Shown: one piece after another, positions 18,727 through 27,097 of the stretch
Position numbering within the stretch: position 1 is the stretch's first letter
How the letters are laid out: each line of letters begins with the position of its first letter
Virus record (IMG/VR): IMGVR_UViG_3300021962_000507
Span: 1-27,865 of that record
DNA: 27,865 nucleotides
Direction: 5' to 3' (one strand)
DNA from: a virus
Translations under genes and position numbers: made by a program
Notes under the pieces: generated by a model
What the model saw: the letters and a program-made list of their open reading frames with translations, nothing else
Database searches by the model: none
Told to the model about the DNA's origin: nothing

Positions 18727-18818
18727 AAGTTGTGGCGGGTTACGGCCAGATGCTAGCGGATGCCGCAAGCTGCGCTACGGTGCCACGCAGCGGGCCGCTC
18801 AGCCCGATCCACCCGCCT
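18727..18818. promoter_or_regulatory. Divergent control region between recombination and replication operons
   Basis: These 92 bases separate the ATG of the RecE-like gene (minus) from the ATG chosen for the helicase-methyltransferase (plus). Promoters for both operons must lie here or just inside the genes. Small inverted repeats such as GCGG-AT-G-CCGC are present, but I could not fix a convincing -35/-10 pair. The GTG at 18732 would extend the plus-strand gene across the whole region. Confidence 0.35.
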
Positions 18819-21086
18819 ATGAACTACTCCGCCTTTCTCGCCTCCAAATCCACCGCCTGCCCACCAGTCGGGTTTGACCCCGCACCATTCACCGCGCCGC
18901 TGTTCCCCTTCCAGCGCGACATCGTCACCATGGCCTGCCGCGTTGGCAGGTTCTGCATCTGGGCCGATTGCGGCATGGGCAAAACCGCCATGCAGCTGGA
19001 ATGGGCCGCTCAGGTTTGCCAGCAAACCGGCGGCAACGTGCTGATCTTGGCGCCGCTTGCCGTATCCCACCAAACCGTGCGCGAGGGCCAGAAGTTCGGC
19101 ATCGCCTGTCACTTCGCCAGCACGCAGGCTGATGTGAAACCGGGCATCACGGTCACCAACTACGAAAAGCTGGCCCACTTCGATCCGGGCAGCTTTCAAG
19201 GTGTGGTGCTGGATGAGTCCAGCATCCTGAAGGCATACACCGGCAAGATCCGCAATCAGATCATCGAGTCATTTGCGCAGACGCCATTCCGTCTCGCCTG
19301 CTCAGCCACACCAGCACCAAACGATCACATGGAGCTCGGCAATCACGCTGAGTTCATCGGCGTGATGACCCGCACCGAAATGCTGGCCATGTTCTTCGTC
19401 CACGACGGCGGCGACACCAGCAAGTGGCGACTCAAAGGTCATGCCGTCAGCAAGTTCTGGGAGTGGGTCTGCAGCTGGGCCGTAACCATCCGCAAGCCAT
19501 CAGACCTCGGCTACGACGATGGCAGCTTCATCCTTCCCGAACTACGGATCCAAGACTGCACCGTTGAGACGCCACGCGACGCTGCAACTGATGACGCTGG
19601 CCAGATGGCACTCTTCGCCATGGAAGCCCGCACCCTCAGCGATCAGCGCCACGTGCGCAAGGCATCGCTCGATCTGCGCGTTGCAGCTGCTGCCACCTTG
19701 GCCAACAGCAACACCGAGCAATGGCTGATCTGGTGTGATCTCAACGATGAATCCAAAGCGCTCACCGCAGCCATTGATGGCGCTGTTGAGGTATCAGGCT
19801 CTGATATCGACGATCACAAGCGCCAGGCCGCCATCGATTTCCAAGACGGCAAGATCCGCGTCCTAGTCAGCAAACCCAGCATCTTCGGGTTTGGCCTCAA
19901 CTTCCAGCGCTGCCACAACGTCGCCTTTGTCGGGCTGTCACACAGCTACGAGGCGTTCTATCAAGCCATCCGCCGCTGCTGGCGATTTGGCCAAAAGCAG
20001 CCCGTCAACGCTCACATCATCTACGACGTGGCAGAAGGCCGCGTGATCGACAACATCCGCCGCAAGGAAGCGGACAGCATCGCCATGGCTGAAAACATGG
20101 TCGCCATCATGAAGCAATCCACCATGGAACAACTCAAGAAGATCCAACGCCAAGTAGCACCCCACATCACCGAACACCAAACCGGCGACAACTGGGATCT
20201 CTACATGGGCGATTGCGTTGAGAGCATTCGCAAGCTGGACTCTGATTCGATCCACTACAGCATCTTCAGCCCACCATTCGCTTCGCTCTACACCTACTCC
20301 AACAGCGACCGTGATATGGGCAACAGCCGCACTGAACAGGAGTTCTTCGATCACTTCTCCTTTCTGGCCGCTGAGCTCCATCGCGTGATGATGCCTGGCC
20401 GGCTCATCAGCTTCCATTGCATGAATCTGCCCAGCAGCAAGGAGCGCGATGGCTTCATCGGAGTGAAAGACTTCCGCGGCGACATGCTGCGCATCTTCCA
20501 AGCTGCTGGCTTTGTATTCCATAGCGAGGTGTGCATCTGGAAGGATCCAGTCACTGCTATGCAGCGCACCAAGGCAATCGGCCTACTGCACAAACAGATC
20601 CGCAAGGATTCAGCACTCAGCCGCCAGGGCATCCCTGACTATCTGGTCACCGTGCGCAAGCTGGGCGACAACCCCGAGCCCTGCGCTGGCCCGTTCACTG
20701 AGTTTGCCGGCGAGAACCCACCACCTAAGACGGGCGATGCAATCAAGGATTCGATCAACATCTGGCAGCGCTACGCCAGCCCTGTCTGGATGGATATCAA
20801 TCCATCAGACACGCTGCAATATCGCAGCGCACGCGCCAATGAAGATGAGCGCCACATCTGCCCGCTGCAGCTTGAGGTGATCCGCCGCGGCCTGCAACTC
20901 TGGAGTAATCCCGGCGATCTGGTACTCAGCCCGTTCGCTGGCATCGGCTCCGAGGGCTACGTCAGCCTGCAGATGGGCCGCCGCTTTGTCGGCTTTGAGC
21001 TCAAGCCCAGCTACTTCAACTGCGCAGTCAAGAACCTCACCAACGTGCAGGCCGCTAAGCAGGCCGAGCTCCTGCCATGCAGCTGA
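18819..21086 (+). CDS. SNF2-type helicase fused to a DNA methyltransferase
   Basis: A 755-residue fusion; start at ATG 18819 is preferred over GTG 18732, which would fill the divergent promoter region. Residues about 30-400 are an SF2/SNF2 ATPase: ADCGMGKT (Walker A, 49-56), VVLDESSIL with Asp132-Glu133, CSATPAP (161-167) and motif VI QAIRRCWRFGQ (382-392). Residues about 455-745 are an amino-methyltransferase of beta order: motif IV SPPF (484-487) precedes motif I LSPFAGIGSEG (703-713), with FVGFELKPSYF after it. SPPF is the form favoured by cytosine-N4 enzymes, although N6-adenine cannot be excluded. It probably modifies phage DNA while translocating. Overlaps the next helicase by 10 bases. 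Confidence 0.87.
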   Translation: MNYSAFLASKSTACPPVGFDPAPFTAPLFPFQRDIVTMACRVGRFCIWADCGMGKTAMQLEWAAQVCQQTGGNVLILAPLAVSHQTVREGQKFGIACHFASTQADVKPGITVTNYEKLAHFDPGSFQGVVLDESSILKAYTGKIRNQIIESFAQTPFRLACSATPAPNDHMELGNHAEFIGVMTRTEMLAMFFVHDGGDTSKWRLKGHAVSKFWEWVCSWAVTIRKPSDLGYDDGSFILPELRIQDCTVETPRDAATDDAGQMALFAMEARTLSDQRHVRKASLDLRVAAAATLANSNTEQWLIWCDLNDESKALTAAIDGAVEVSGSDIDDHKRQAAIDFQDGKIRVLVSKPSIFGFGLNFQRCHNVAFVGLSHSYEAFYQAIRRCWRFGQKQPVNAHIIYDVAEGRVIDNIRRKEADSIAMAENMVAIMKQSTMEQLKKIQRQVAPHITEHQTGDNWDLYMGDCVESIRKLDSDSIHYSIFSPPFASLYTYSNSDRDMGNSRTEQEFFDHFSFLAAELHRVMMPGRLISFHCMNLPSSKERDGFIGVKDFRGDMLRIFQAAGFVFHSEVCIWKDPVTAMQRTKAIGLLHKQIRKDSALSRQGIPDYLVTVRKLGDNPEPCAGPFTEFAGENPPPKTGDAIKDSINIWQRYASPVWMDINPSDTLQYRSARANEDERHICPLQLEVIRRGLQLWSNPGDLVLSPFAGIGSEGYVSLQMGRRFVGFELKPSYFNCAVKNLTNVQAAKQAELLPCS

Positions 21087-22453: not shown

Positions 22454-23406
22454 CTCTCATGCTTCTCGACACCTTCGCAGGCATCGGCGGTTTTTCTCTC
22501 GCAGCGCATCAACTCGGCGGCTTTGAGACCATCGGCTTTGTAGAGCGCGAGCCGTTTTGCCAGCAAATCCTTTCAAAGAACTTCGCCGGCATTCCGATCT
22601 ATGACGACATCACCACTTTCAACCCAGAGCCCGGCTCAGCTGACGTTATTTGCGGTGGGTTCCCCTGCCAGGACATCAGTACCGCAGGCAAGCAAGCCGG
22701 TATCAAGGAAGGCACTCGGTCTGGTCTCTTTTACGAACTCATGCGAGTCGTTCGCTTGGTACGACCGCAGTACGTCATCTTGGAAAACGTCGCAGCGATC
22801 ATTGCTAACGGACTGGACACCGTTCTCGGGGAACTGGCCGAGGCAGGGTTTGATGCGGAGTGGGCATGTATTCCAGCAAGTGCTGTGGGAGCCTGCCATC
22901 AGCGAGACCGGTGGTGGCTTGTTGCCTACCCCAGTGCGCCCCAGCGGTGGCCGGAGCGTGCCCAAGGACGCAGAACGCAAAGGACTGAGCGCATACAAGG
23001 ACGGCAAGAAGATGCAGGTGGACCTGCAAAAACATCTGCGGTGGATGCTGCCAACCCCAAGAGCGGGCGAGACATCGGATATGACGAGCAAGCCTGGCAA
23101 CAGGTACAGCCTGAGTGCTTGGGCGCGTCAAGGGGGCGCAATGCTGCCAACCCCAACCACCAACGACAGCAAAAACAGCTCACTGCCGCCATCGCAGATC
23201 AACAGGGATGGCCTAGCTGGAACGATGCTCCGCGACGACTCAATCCCGACTGGCGAAGCTACGTATCTGAACCCGTCCTTTGTCGAGGAGATGATGGGCT
23301 TTCCGGTCGGGTGGACCGCCTTAAAGCCCTAGGCAACGCTGTGGTGCCACAAGTCGCCATGATTCCACTGCAACGCGTTCTGGATCTGCATTGTGGCCAA
23401 CGCTGA
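22450..23406 (+). CDS. dcm: DNA cytosine-5 methyltransferase
   Basis: A 318-residue C5 methyltransferase. Motif I is DTFAGIGGFS (7-16), motif IV GGFPCQD with catalytic Cys73, motif VI ENV (112-114), motif VIII HQRDRWW (150-156) and motif X RLKALGNAVVPQV (290-302). The region between VIII and X (about 160-270), where the target recognition domain lies, is unusually rich in Arg, Gln, Ala and Pro and looks like sequence constrained by another frame. Indeed a 243-codon open frame overlaps it almost entirely (22601-23332). The enzyme would methylate phage DNA for protection from host restriction. It overlaps the VRR-NUC gene by 14 bases. Confidence 0.9.
   Translation: MTLMLLDTFAGIGGFSLAAHQLGGFETIGFVEREPFCQQILSKNFAGIPIYDDITTFNPEPGSADVICGGFPCQDISTAGKQAGIKEGTRSGLFYELMRVVRLVRPQYVILENVAAIIANGLDTVLGELAEAGFDAEWACIPASAVGACHQRDRWWLVAYPSAPQRWPERAQGRRTQRTERIQGRQEDAGGPAKTSAVDAANPKSGRDIGYDEQAWQQVQPECLGASRGRNAANPNHQRQQKQLTAAIADQQGWPSWNDAPRRLNPDWRSYVSEPVLCRGDDGLSGRVDRLKALGNAVVPQVAMIPLQRVLDLHCGQR
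22601..23332 (+). CDS. Nested overlapping ORF (+1 frame) inside the C5 methyltransferase gene, LPTP-repeat type
   Basis: A 243-codon frame from ATG 22601, wholly inside the methyltransferase gene and shifted +1. Its product does not look random: it has SPARTSVPQASKP (21-33), WYDRSTSSWKTSQRSLL, FSGNWPRQGLMRSG (75-88), three LPTP motifs (108-111, 150-153, 182-185) and a C-terminal LNPSFVEEMMGFPVGWTALK. From memory, proteins with SPARTS...WKTSQ...WPRSGxMRNG...LPTP...LNPxFVEWMMGFPxGWT recur in many phages and prophages, apparently always beside or overlapping C5 methyltransferase genes. Both frames therefore seem under selection. Expression is not shown by sequence, and the function is unknown. 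The alternative is mirrored conservation of the methyltransferase frame. Confidence 0.55.
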   Translation: MTTSPLSTQSPAQLTLFAVGSPARTSVPQASKPVSRKALGLVSFTNSCESFAWYDRSTSSWKTSQRSLLTDWTPFSGNWPRQGLMRSGHVFQQVLWEPAISETGGGLLPTPVRPSGGRSVPKDAERKGLSAYKDGKKMQVDLQKHLRWMLPTPRAGETSDMTSKPGNRYSLSAWARQGGAMLPTPTTNDSKNSSLPPSQINRDGLAGTMLRDDSIPTGEATYLNPSFVEEMMGFPVGWTALKP

Positions 23407-23824: not shown

Positions 23825-26224
23825 ATGTCGAATCTACAGAAGGCGCCTGATTTCGGCGCTATTCGTCAATTCCTCGCCATCCTCGGCAAACCAACAGGCA
23901 CTGCACGCCTTCGCGGTTTCTATCCATCAGGTCACCCCAATAAACCAGGCGACCCCGGCCGCAAAGCACCGCCATCACGTAACACCGTTGAGCAATGGCA
24001 AGCAGAAGGCCGCGGCGTTTATGTCGTCATCAATGACGGCGGCGATACTGACGCGGACATCACAGCCTGCCGTGCATTCTTCTGCGAATGGGATGACCGC
24101 CCAAAGGATTGGCAGATCAATGCCTGGAACGATCTCGGCCTGCCAGAGCCCACTATCCAGATCGATACCGGTGGCAAGTCAATCCACAACTACTGGGTGC
24201 TGAGCGAACAGATCAGCCCGCAACATTGGCGCATCATCCAGAAACGGCTCCTTGAGCACGCAGACGCTGATCGCACCCTTAAAAATCCATCTCGCGTGAT
24301 GCGCCTTCCAGGCACCTATCACGTCGGTGCAGATGGCACCCTGGGCGCTCAAGCATCAATCATCCACACATCAGACAACCTCTACACCGTCGAGCAGATC
24401 GAGGCGGCACTGCCTGATGATCAGATCTTCGAAGAACTAGACCGCGCAAGCCGTCACACCGATTACGACCCCCGTCCACTCGATCAAATCGAACAAGCAC
24501 TGAGCTGCATCCCAGCAGCCGTGCCGAAGCAAAAGCAATATCCCTATTACCGCAACCTCCTATGGGGTCTCATCAAAGCCTGCGAAGAGGCCGGCGGCAC
24601 CGCTGACTACGCCATCACACTGCTGAAAAAGCACAGCCCCTTATTCGCAGAGATCGATCAGGTCGCCCACTCAGGTGGTGATCGCGTCAACGCCGGCACC
24701 TTCTGGTATTTCGCCCAGCAACACGGCTGGCGGCCCCCATCAGCCATGAAGGTGGTACGCAAAAAGCCCGCCACCACGACGCCTGAGCTAGTCGATGTAA
24801 TCAATACCCAACTCGGCAGCAAGAGCGCTGACTACCTCCCAGAAGTCCTAAAGGGCGTCTTCCGTCATCCCGTTGATCGCTGGATTTGTCACGACAACAT
24901 CCTGCACAAGTGGAACGGCACCCACTACGAACCCATCCCCGATTCAAAGCTCACCCCACGGCTCGCCAACTTCCTCGCAACCCTTGAAGCACGCGATGGC
25001 AAAAATGGTCCCATCATCCATCCATGGGCACGGCCTCGCTACGTAGCCGAATCCCTCGCGTGGTTTCGCGATCAACTCGGTGGCTGTGAAGTCAACCCAC
25101 CGAATGCCATCAACTGCCGTAATGGCGTTGTCAGCTGGTACTGGCAAGACGGCCGCTATCACCAAGATTTCAGCCCACACGATCCTGAGGTGCCCTTCAC
25201 CTACGTGACCGGTTACGACTACGACCCGGCCGCAAACCCCGAGCACATGCACCGCCTGCTCGAGGCCGTAGAGCCCACCGACCAGGACACCCTGCAGCGC
25301 ATCCTCGGCTCATCCCTAGACCTCGCCAAATATCGCGCCACACGTGGCCGCCCTAGAGCACTGCTGATGATCGGCTCAGGCTCCAACGGCAAGGACACCA
25401 TCCGCACCGCACTGCGCGACACCCTAGGCGCTCGCAACTTCAGCTCATGCACGCTCGCTGATTTCCGCCAATACGACCAAGGCCGCAAGTTTCCCATCGC
25501 TCCACTGCGCGATGCATCGATCAATTGGTCATCAGAAAACAGCCAATTTGTTCACATCGATTCACTTCAAGCTCTTAAAAGCGCCATCTCAGGTGAGGAA
25601 CTTGCGTGGGAAGTCAAAGGCATTCAAGAGGCAACATTCACCCCGAACTGCCTGTTCGTTTTCAACCTCAACAAGGAACCATCACTTACCGGTGAGCAGG
25701 CCGCAATCGAGACACGTTTCCACGTCTTTCAGTTCAAACGCACCTACATGTCGGTGCCGAATCGCCCTGAACATCTAAAGGCCGATCCACGCCTAAAAGA
25801 CGATCCAGAGTTCATCCATCGCCACATCTGTCCAGCCTTCCTCAACTGGCTCTTAGAGGGTCTTCAGCTCTCAGTTGAACACGGCATCGACTACGAAACC
25901 GGTCGCGAGGCAATGCGTGCTGTACGCCGCAAGGGCAGCCACCTATGGGACTTCTGCGATGAGGTGGGCCTCGAGTGGCACGAGGGCGCCAGAACGCCCT
26001 TGTCGCAGGTTTGGGCGCTCTTATGCGACTGGTACGCCACAGAGGGCTTCAAGGACGCTCACGGCCGCTGGGTGATCGATCCACCCAACGACCCCCCAAT
26101 CAAGGCATCACGGCTCTTGGTGCCGCGGCTGCTGGCGGTCTTCCCCGAACTCAAGATCGAAAGGGAGGGCAAGTCCAGAAGCGCAGCGTTGGTGGGGGTC
26201 ACTTTGCCTCCAACCATCGGCTGA
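23825..26224 (+). CDS. Primase-helicase: AEP-like primase with SF3/D5-type helicase
   Basis: A 799-residue replication protein. The N-terminal 200 or so residues look like an archaeo-eukaryotic-type primase: FFCEWDDRP with Glu88 and Asp90, QIDTGGKSIHNYWVL (112-126) with His121, and NPSRVMRLPGTYH (154-166). After a linker, a D5-like region (about 340-470) leads to a superfamily 3 helicase with Walker A MIGSGSNGKDT (515-525), where Lys523 is followed by Asp rather than Ser or Thr, and a downstream INWSSEN and CLFVFNLNKEP (sensor-like Asn). It would open the origin and prime DNA synthesis. The candidate origin follows immediately and its first iteron lies in the final codons. Confidence 0.88.
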   Translation: MSNLQKAPDFGAIRQFLAILGKPTGTARLRGFYPSGHPNKPGDPGRKAPPSRNTVEQWQAEGRGVYVVINDGGDTDADITACRAFFCEWDDRPKDWQINAWNDLGLPEPTIQIDTGGKSIHNYWVLSEQISPQHWRIIQKRLLEHADADRTLKNPSRVMRLPGTYHVGADGTLGAQASIIHTSDNLYTVEQIEAALPDDQIFEELDRASRHTDYDPRPLDQIEQALSCIPAAVPKQKQYPYYRNLLWGLIKACEEAGGTADYAITLLKKHSPLFAEIDQVAHSGGDRVNAGTFWYFAQQHGWRPPSAMKVVRKKPATTTPELVDVINTQLGSKSADYLPEVLKGVFRHPVDRWICHDNILHKWNGTHYEPIPDSKLTPRLANFLATLEARDGKNGPIIHPWARPRYVAESLAWFRDQLGGCEVNPPNAINCRNGVVSWYWQDGRYHQDFSPHDPEVPFTYVTGYDYDPAANPEHMHRLLEAVEPTDQDTLQRILGSSLDLAKYRATRGRPRALLMIGSGSNGKDTIRTALRDTLGARNFSSCTLADFRQYDQGRKFPIAPLRDASINWSSENSQFVHIDSLQALKSAISGEELAWEVKGIQEATFTPNCLFVFNLNKEPSLTGEQAAIETRFHVFQFKRTYMSVPNRPEHLKADPRLKDDPEFIHRHICPAFLNWLLEGLQLSVEHGIDYETGREAMRAVRRKGSHLWDFCDEVGLEWHEGARTPLSQVWALLCDWYATEGFKDAHGRWVIDPPNDPPIKASRLLVPRLLAVFPELKIEREGKSRSAALVGVTLPPTIG

Positions 26225-26230
26225 ACCCAT

Positions 26231-26284
26231 CGGAGGCAATTGCCTCCGCCGCGTAGGCAAATCGGAGCCAAATCGGAGGCAAAA
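26231..26284 (+). repeat. Left iteron block (forward CGGAGGCAA copies)
   Basis: The block opens with the perfect 18-bp palindrome CGGAGGCAATTGCCTCCG (26231-26248). Three tandem copies follow at exact 11-base spacing: CGTAGGCAAAT (26252), CGGAGCCAAAT (26263) and CGGAGGCAAAA (26274). One-turn spacing places the same face of each repeat on one side of the helix, as expected for cooperative protein binding. A further inverted copy, TTGCCTCCA, is at 26204-26212 inside the primase gene. Confidence 0.75.
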
Positions 26285-26312
26285 CCCCTTGCCATTACTA
26301 GGCGGAGCCTAA

Positions 26313-26344
26313 TACCCCCTTACATATACACATACACGGGGGTA
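26313..26344. other. Stem-loop at the centre of the candidate origin
   Basis: TACCCCC (26313-26319) pairs perfectly with GGGGGTA (26338-26344) around an 18-base A/T- and C-rich loop, TTACATATACACATACAC. A stem of five G-C pairs with an AT-rich loop could be extruded when the origin opens and act as a priming or nicking site. No gene overlaps it. Confidence 0.45.
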
Positions 26345-26391
26345 AAGGGCTCTATATACGTGTGTAGAAAGAGAGTGGCTTTTTGCCCGTT

Positions 26392-26459
26392 TTGCCTCCG
26401 CCCCCGTCAACACTGGGGTTTTGCCTCCGCTCTGCCTCCGCCCTGTTAAATTGCCTCCG
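26392..26459 (-). repeat. Right iteron block (reverse TTGCCTCCG copies)
   Basis: TTGCCTCCG occurs at 26392-26400, 26421-26429 and 26451-26459, with a one-mismatch copy CTGCCTCCG at 26432-26440; starts are 29, 11 and 19 bases apart. A degenerate TTGCCCG lies at 26383. These are in the opposite orientation to the left block, so the two blocks face each other across the AT-rich core. The last copy ends 26 bases before the next ATG. Confidence 0.72.
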
Positions 26460-26485
26460 TCCAGCCCTTACCCGGACACCAAGAC

Positions 26486-27097
26486 ATGCCCAACCAACGG
26501 GATGGCGGCCTGCCATTGCAGGTCCTGCCGCGCCTTGCACATCACTTCCACATCCACCAAGAGGTGACCGGCCTCCACCCTTCCGGCAAGCGCCTCAGGA
26601 TCGATGCCATCGCAGTCCCACGTGACCCATCTCAATGGGCGCGACCTGATATCGCCCTTGGCATTGAGTTCAAAAGGGCCACGGCCTCAGGCCGTCGCGA
26701 CAGCAGCAAGGTGATTCGTCAGTGCATTGATTACACCTTGACCGATTGGAAAGGTTTCGGTGCCGGCCTGCCGATCTTCTATTGCCCTGGTTTTGATTCC
26801 ATTCAGGTCTGGCGTGATCTCAGAAACTGGTCGGCGTTTAGCTTCCGCGATGATGGTTTTCTTGGTGAATGGGTACCAAACGATCCTCCTACTAATCAAC
26901 AACGTTTCAGGGCTGGCATGGGCTATGCAATCAGTGGCATCCTTGGCCAGCACAACGTCGGTGAGTTGATCCAGCGGGATGACGATGGTTGGTCGTTCAT
27001 TAAGCATGGCGGCGGCTTCCATGTGCAGTGGTGTGAGCGCCGCGGCGTATGCGAAGCGCAGCGCAATCAACTAAGGCGTCGCATCGGGTCAGGCTGA
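26486..27097 (+). CDS. PD-(D/E)XK nuclease
   Basis: A 203-residue protein with a restriction-type nuclease core: Glu26 in HQEVTG, GKRLRIDAI with Asp40, then GIEFKRA giving Glu61-X-Lys63 and the helix VIRQCIDYTLTDW with Gln79. The D-X20-E-X-K spacing is right for a PD-(D/E)XK fold. The remaining part (SAFSFRDDGFLGEWVP, ending basic RRRIGSG) is unassigned. Immediately downstream of the putative origin, it may resolve replication or recombination intermediates, or degrade host DNA. Upstream iterons could control its expression. Confidence 0.75.
   Translation: MPNQRDGGLPLQVLPRLAHHFHIHQEVTGLHPSGKRLRIDAIAVPRDPSQWARPDIALGIEFKRATASGRRDSSKVIRQCIDYTLTDWKGFGAGLPIFYCPGFDSIQVWRDLRNWSAFSFRDDGFLGEWVPNDPPTNQQRFRAGMGYAISGILGQHNVGELIQRDDDGWSFIKHGGGFHVQWCERRGVCEAQRNQLRRRIGSG

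Follow-up and report, generated by a model that had tools for sequence, protein, structure and literature searches.

The 27,865-base virus record IMGVR_UViG_3300021962_000507 of IMG/VR (positions 1 to 27,865; hereafter called the window) contains an array of short repeats, or iterons, behind a gene that encodes a fusion of a PrimPol with a helicase. The coordinates of the features at this locus are collected in Table 1. Ten copies of the iteron CGGAGGCAA lie at 26231-26459 around an AT-rich center, with five forward copies and one reverse copy in the left arm and four reverse copies in the right arm. The array starts 7 bp past the stop codon of the PrimPol-helicase gene and ends at +235 from that stop. 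Copies with at most one mismatch were found at 26231 (+) and 26240 (-), at the positions of the left and right blocks in Table 1, and additionally at 26204 (-). This last copy was dropped from the array: it lies inside the open reading frame (ORF) of the primase-helicase, which ends at 26224; the copy codes for Leu-Pro-Pro, and several relatives do not retain it as an iteron. Since the two-mismatch copy CGGAGCCTA at 26303 (+) aligns with a clear iteron in relatives, the array was counted as ten copies.

The exact sequence CGGAGGCAA occurs six times in the 261 bp from 26225 to 26485, whereas the highest count of any 9-mer in 1000 dinucleotide shuffles was four, and nowhere else in the window does a 9-mer reach four copies per 262 nt. 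A spacing of 11 nt is present in both arms and, from the center outward, each arm starts with a spacing of 29 followed by one of 11. By nearest-neighbor energy the center belongs to the top 0.01% of the window in instability, with an AT content of approximately 56-60% compared to 42% for the whole window, and the sequence TACGTGTGTAGA within it is kept by most close relatives when these are compared by eye. An earlier, sequence-only reading of this DNA had described about ten copies with 11-base spacing, directly behind the helicase gene and around an AT-rich center, with no such array elsewhere, and all of these points are borne out, the position behind the gene being the same in relatives. 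The reading had placed the start of the array at the coding copy at 26204, which does not hold. It had also proposed a forward block on the left and a reverse block on the right; this is correct for the right arm but not for the left, where the first two copies, one of them reverse, form a palindrome. As for its placing of the array in the largest gene-free stretch, gaps of comparable size may be present among short, uncertain ORFs at 12-17 kb.

The PrimPol-helicase has Pfam matches to DUF5906 and D5_N, and it matches the 'P4 family' model TIGR01613 (primase_Cterm) with an E value of 2.1e-20 and 72.8 bits, which is below the cut-off of 108.7. The N-terminus is an archaeo-eukaryotic PrimPol (AEP) that matches PDB 6zp9, the AEP of the PrimPol of cyanophage S-2L (E value 1e-38), and is 38.6% identical to the S-2L PrimPol over 302 amino acids (residues 1-302, E value 8e-48). 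The helicase part gave a weak match (E value 0.0075) to PDB 7ola/7om0, in which the molecule is named 'DNA primase'. An AlphaFold2 (AF2) model of the last 150 residues (650-799), built with 48 sequences of relatives, has the order helix-strand-helix-helix-strand-strand, with a mean predicted local distance difference test score (pLDDT) of 76 and values of mostly 77-92 across the winged helix; a full-length model was discarded (pLDDT 49.5). Foldseek comparison of the tail model to the PDB placed the RFX5 DNA-binding domain first (probability 0.98, E value 0.06), followed by winged helices of the African swine fever virus PrimPol (AsfvPrimPol), Rep-DNA and the origin recognition complex, all of them weak by E value, and a search of the PDB with the C-terminal profile alone gave no credible match. 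The tail of C962R, a D5-type protein, has been likened to the origin-binding domain of P4 alpha and to Rfx1 (PMC10516667).

Table 1. Features at and around the iteron array (window coordinates)
Feature	Position	Strand	Remarks
PrimPol-helicase, 799 aa, proposed initiator	23825..26224	+	PrimPol ~1-300, D5/DUF5906 helicase ~425-690, C-terminal winged helix ~705-799
Predicted C-terminal winged helix, aa 706-799, proposed iteron-binding domain	25940..26221	+	AF2; predicted recognition helix ~aa 762-772
Outer left iteron pair, perfect 18-bp palindrome CGGAGGCAATTGCCTCCG	26231..26248		From sequence; retained by most D5-type relatives, as a rule with 1 nt between the copies
Left block, three forward iterons at 26252, 26263, 26274, spacing 11	26252..26282	+	
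Motif B, AAACCCC-TTGSNANNACT, second conserved motif	26281..26298	+	Longer form: sole match in window
Innermost left iteron, degenerate CGGAGCCTA	26303..26311	+	Intact CGAAGGCAA at the same place in L006, L086
AT-rich center, proposed unwinding element	26312..26391		Least stable 80 bp in window
Right block, reverse iterons at 26392, 26421, 26432, 26451	26392..26459	-	
Downstream ORF, outside the origin, right edge of the exchanged cassette	26486..27097	+	Homologues behind VapE-type helicases with another array; other genes here in other relatives

Helicase types and iterons among the relatives

A search with the PrimPol part of the protein yielded 80 loci, of which 77 had sequence behind the stop codon. 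Three unrelated types of helicase are found fused to this one PrimPol: D5 (49 loci), VapE (PF05272, the type found in S-2L; 26 loci) and a third kind (2 loci). In close relatives from IMG/VR the array lies directly behind this gene, while its unit drifts and the downstream gene varies. Sites matching CGRASSCWA were present in all 49 D5-type loci and in none of the 26 VapE-type loci, GTRGGAACA was found in none of the D5-type loci, and CCGTTAS was present in both loci of the third type. Exact 8-mer repeats exceeded the shuffles in 45 of the 49 D5-type loci and in all loci of the other two types (26/26 and 2/2). Comparison of the repeat unit in related phages, which had been suggested with the sequence-only reading, thus revealed an array that is kept behind the gene and a unit that changes with the helicase type. 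Further searches added more loci of two types, those of the VapE type having the units GTTGGAACA, GGTTGGAC and GTGGGAACA, and those of the third type ACCGTTAC; a few of the added loci, L200, L212 and L223 among them, have no strong exact repeat, and the shuffle statistics cover only the first set of 77. A VapE-type gene on a Synechococcus sp. ATX 2A4 contig (L179) is followed by seven CGCCACCC sites, three of them forward and four reverse, and this PrimPol-VapE locus is perhaps a prophage or satellite. The presence of the array on this contig points to picocyanobacterial hosts, and the phage of the window is probably a tailed phage of picocyanobacteria. In one third-type locus (L131, 5001-8591), the PrimPol-helicase has 1196 amino acids and what appears to be an intein inserted into the Walker A motif (GSGK-...-T); a close homologue in L181, at 96% over the PrimPol part, has 847 amino acids.

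Alignments across helicase types locate the borders of the part that differs. The window protein is 63% identical to that of the VapE-type locus L079 over amino acids 1-318 and unalignable after that; the two loci have homologous genes behind their arrays (72-83% in that group). At the DNA level, the window and L095 align at 83% upstream and through the PrimPol half as far as -1488 from the stop, and then show no alignment until +277, where it resumes at 75% with the downstream gene. The D5-type L112 and the third-type L216 are aligned to -1549, show no alignment over the helicase and the array, and align again at 87% from +327. In both genome pairs, the replaced block starts near residue 305 of the PrimPol, ends shortly beyond the array and is flanked by homologous DNA. 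These alignment gaps show that the exchanged piece consisted of the helicase half together with the array, on at least two occasions.

Differences were also seen within a single helicase type. The proteins of L140 and L141, both of the D5 type, are 92-97% identical in the helicase core and differ most in the linker and the last ~120 amino acids (41-56% in the tail), and the iteron is CGAAGGCAA in L140 and CGGACGCAA in L141. A search for specificity residues by mutual information was rejected because it was confounded by clades; amino acid 757 is P in genomes with CGRAGGCAA and R or H in genomes with CGGACGCAA. The downstream ORF at the right border had no Pfam or NCBIfam match; it contains GIEFKR and similar motifs, is perhaps a PD-(D/E)XK nuclease, and is exchanged among relatives.

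A candidate replication origin and its alternatives

We interpret 26231-26459 as a putative replication origin bound by the adjacent primase-helicase, because the array is fixed 3' of the gene, changes with the helicase half, flanks the weakest duplex and lies near the skew minimum in most of the full-length relatives examined. Judging from these sequence comparisons, we put the probability of this interpretation at about 0.85; the same evidence supports the sequence-only reading, which had proposed a candidate phage origin next to the primase-helicase. In the mechanism that we envisage, the PrimPol-helicase would bind the CGGAGGCAA iterons through its predicted C-terminal winged helix, and the oppositely facing sets of sites would position a pair of helicase hexamers, head to head, with the AT-rich center between them. 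ATP-driven melting would then open the center, the PrimPol domain would prime, and two forks would depart in opposite directions, so that initiation would be bidirectional.

In order to look for a replication signal, as had been suggested with the sequence-only reading, genomes of eleven relatives and of S-2L were rotated to the array and the cumulative GC skew was detrended. The skew minimum lay at +1.0 to +1.5 kb from the stop in seven of the eleven relatives (G003, G004, G005, G006, G015, G016 and G017) and at +2.0 kb in G012. Among the seven, terminal repeats that indicate a circular map are present only in G004 and G006; for G003, G015, G016 and G017 circularity is unproven. In three genomes, the GC skew at third codon positions changed from between -0.21 and -0.29 upstream to between +0.06 and +0.20 downstream. 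Since the flanking genes are co-directional and the third-codon skew changes sign, the switch is not accounted for by the direction of the genes or the composition of their proteins.

Several observations weigh against an origin at this site. Rather than at the array, the skew minimum is found 1.0-1.5 kb further downstream, close to where the structural genes start. Contigs frequently end in this region, and those of G015 and G016 do so almost at the minimum. The skew analysis came out negative in G011, G013, G014 and S-2L, which have their minima elsewhere (G013 and G014 are near-identical around the array). The arrays of L090, L091, L112 and L119 are too degenerate to exceed the shuffles. 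In addition, the helicase types are distributed in a clade-like manner on the PrimPol tree, on which the label needs at least two changes, so that the co-change of helicase and array amounts to two or more events and not to 77 independent observations.

A different function of the repeats would be that of operators, on which the primase-helicase or another phage protein controls the downstream gene or its own operon while replication begins elsewhere. The array does sit between two co-directional genes, and one protein may do both jobs. However, no sigma-70-like promoter was found at 26100-26600, although cyanophage promoters may differ, and the very unstable center between inverted blocks would be superfluous for an operator. 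The downstream gene, moreover, varies while the array stays, and the same downstream gene is also found where helicase and array are both of another kind. This pattern indicates that the array follows the helicase and not a regulated gene, and we consider the operator explanation unlikely.

Less probable again is an origin based on structure, in which one strand would form a large stem-loop that is recognized by its shape rather than by the sequence of the repeats, as proposed for pRN1 and phage BIP-1. The strand folds much better than shuffles (z = -6.3), and pRN1 ORF904, which has a similar domain order, has its origin 3' of the gene (PMC4234260), but such a fold is automatic with inverted iterons, several of the copies are direct repeats that lack a partner, and the arms are not mirror images in every relative (L133, for example). 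The copies also change in concert, from CGGAGGCAA to CGGACGCAA, along with the tail of the protein, which argues for sequence-specific binding to double-stranded DNA. That the array is instead a packaging, recombination or attachment site is very improbable: contig ends do cluster 0.5-2 kb behind the primase-helicase stop (25 of the 77 loci, with the window itself ending at +1.64 kb) and the skew minimum falls in the same place, but the ends lie downstream of the array and not within it, in a stretch of gene exchange, and coupling to the helicase half and presence on a cyanobacterial contig (L179) would be unexpected for pac, cos or att. The cluster of contig ends may reflect a variable gene region, a packaging end or an assembly break.

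Apart from the iterons of the putative origin, the region contains a second conserved motif, motif B. It was found in 54 distinct contexts at most 450 nt from the stop, nearly all of them in D5-type or third-type loci, compared to 35 in the entire remainder of the loci. It occurs beside the iterons in both orientations in arrays of the D5 type and some of the third type (L112, L131, L143 and others), with essentially none in VapE arrays, and may be a site for priming or for a host factor. A hairpin at motif B was rejected, most cases being without flanking complementarity. An RNA element was also rejected, no Rfam match being found at 25900-26900, and the one terminator-like match, inside the right block, was not clearly above chance.

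Comparison with known systems and with cyanophage S-2L

The origins of phage-inducible chromosomal islands (PICIs) and of Staphylococcus aureus pathogenicity islands (SaPIs) have two sets of iterons flanking an AT-rich region (PMC6092414), and SaPI Rep uses its C-terminal domain to bind iterons that lie shortly behind its gene (PMC7581432). The locus in the window is like those of PICIs and SaPIs (SaPI5 Pri-Rep, SaPIbov1 Rep and the E. coli PICIs) in the position of the candidate origin directly 3' of the pri-rep gene, and like SaPI5 Rep in the fusion of a primase to a D5-type helicase. Unlike a PICI, the window has its own tail, fiber and lysozyme genes, and its relatives are phage-sized, up to 41-43 kb, and not satellites. 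By layout the array element would be a PICI-type origin, but it is not part of a PICI. The alpha protein of satellite phage P4, which acts with ori/crr, combines primase, helicase and winged-helix binding to the repeats of the origin in one protein (cited in PMC4234260); the helicase described here matches the 'P4 family' model at a score below cut-off, as given above, and P4 alpha has a Toprim primase in place of the AEP PrimPol. ORF904 of the archaeal plasmid pRN1 likewise combines an AEP, a superfamily 3 helicase and a winged helix, and an essential sequence lies just downstream of its gene, where a stem-loop without iterons has been proposed (PMC4234260), in contrast to the iterons here. 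Finally, the C-terminal domain of SCCmec Cch2, a D5-type helicase, binds AAGTG direct repeats directly downstream in vitro (PMC7581432), but there are just three of these 5-nt iterons and the polymerase is separate.

S-2L has the same PrimPol as the window and the same neighbors, namely a single-strand annealing protein, a PD-(D/E)XK nuclease, a superfamily 2 (SF2) helicase and VRR-NUC. It differs in having a VapE-type helicase (PF05272) in place of D5/DUF5906, other repeats, PurZ, and no change of skew at the array. Directly behind its PrimPol gene, S-2L (L073) has a 359-bp unannotated gap (23038-23397) with eight GTGCC/GGCAC sites in both orientations, and the density of this motif over the 45-kb genome peaks at 23.04-23.30 kb. 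Since the motif was picked after viewing the gap, this is a prediction and not a test; the comparison predicts that the gap is a candidate origin of this 2-aminoadenine phage, for which a term search of the S-2L papers found no phage origin named. PurZ was found in S-2L alone among the 12 records searched, and for the chemistry of Z-DNA no member of the adenylosuccinate synthetase family was found in the window group, several records of which are fragments. Elsewhere in the window, the ORF at 18732-21086 encodes an SF2 helicase fused to an N6/N4 DNA methylase, in a stretch that is missing from the otherwise similar contig G001.

To our knowledge, replication origins have been located in only a minority of the phages known from sequence alone. 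In our best reading, the putative origin would be bound by its own helicase and has a PICI/SaPI-like layout, but in full-sized tailed cyanophages. We regard it as moderately probable, from the comparison of sequences, that in these cyanophages the replicase's helicase half is exchanged as a single cassette with the origin behind it, each helicase type bringing its own iterons and origin specificity mapping to the helicase half, and that full-sized phages, S-2L among them, use an origin of the PICI/SaPI type as their main origin. The layout, which has been described as exclusive to PICIs, would then also occur in independent phages, and the origins of a large group of cyanophages could be found by a simple rule, that of looking directly behind the PrimPol-helicase gene. 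The exchanged helicases would amount to a series of natural domain swaps, from which the residues that recognize each iteron could be worked out. The candidate origin of S-2L bears on origin opening in a genome that lacks adenine and, if the prediction is true, that origin must open although every adenine is replaced by 2-aminoadenine.
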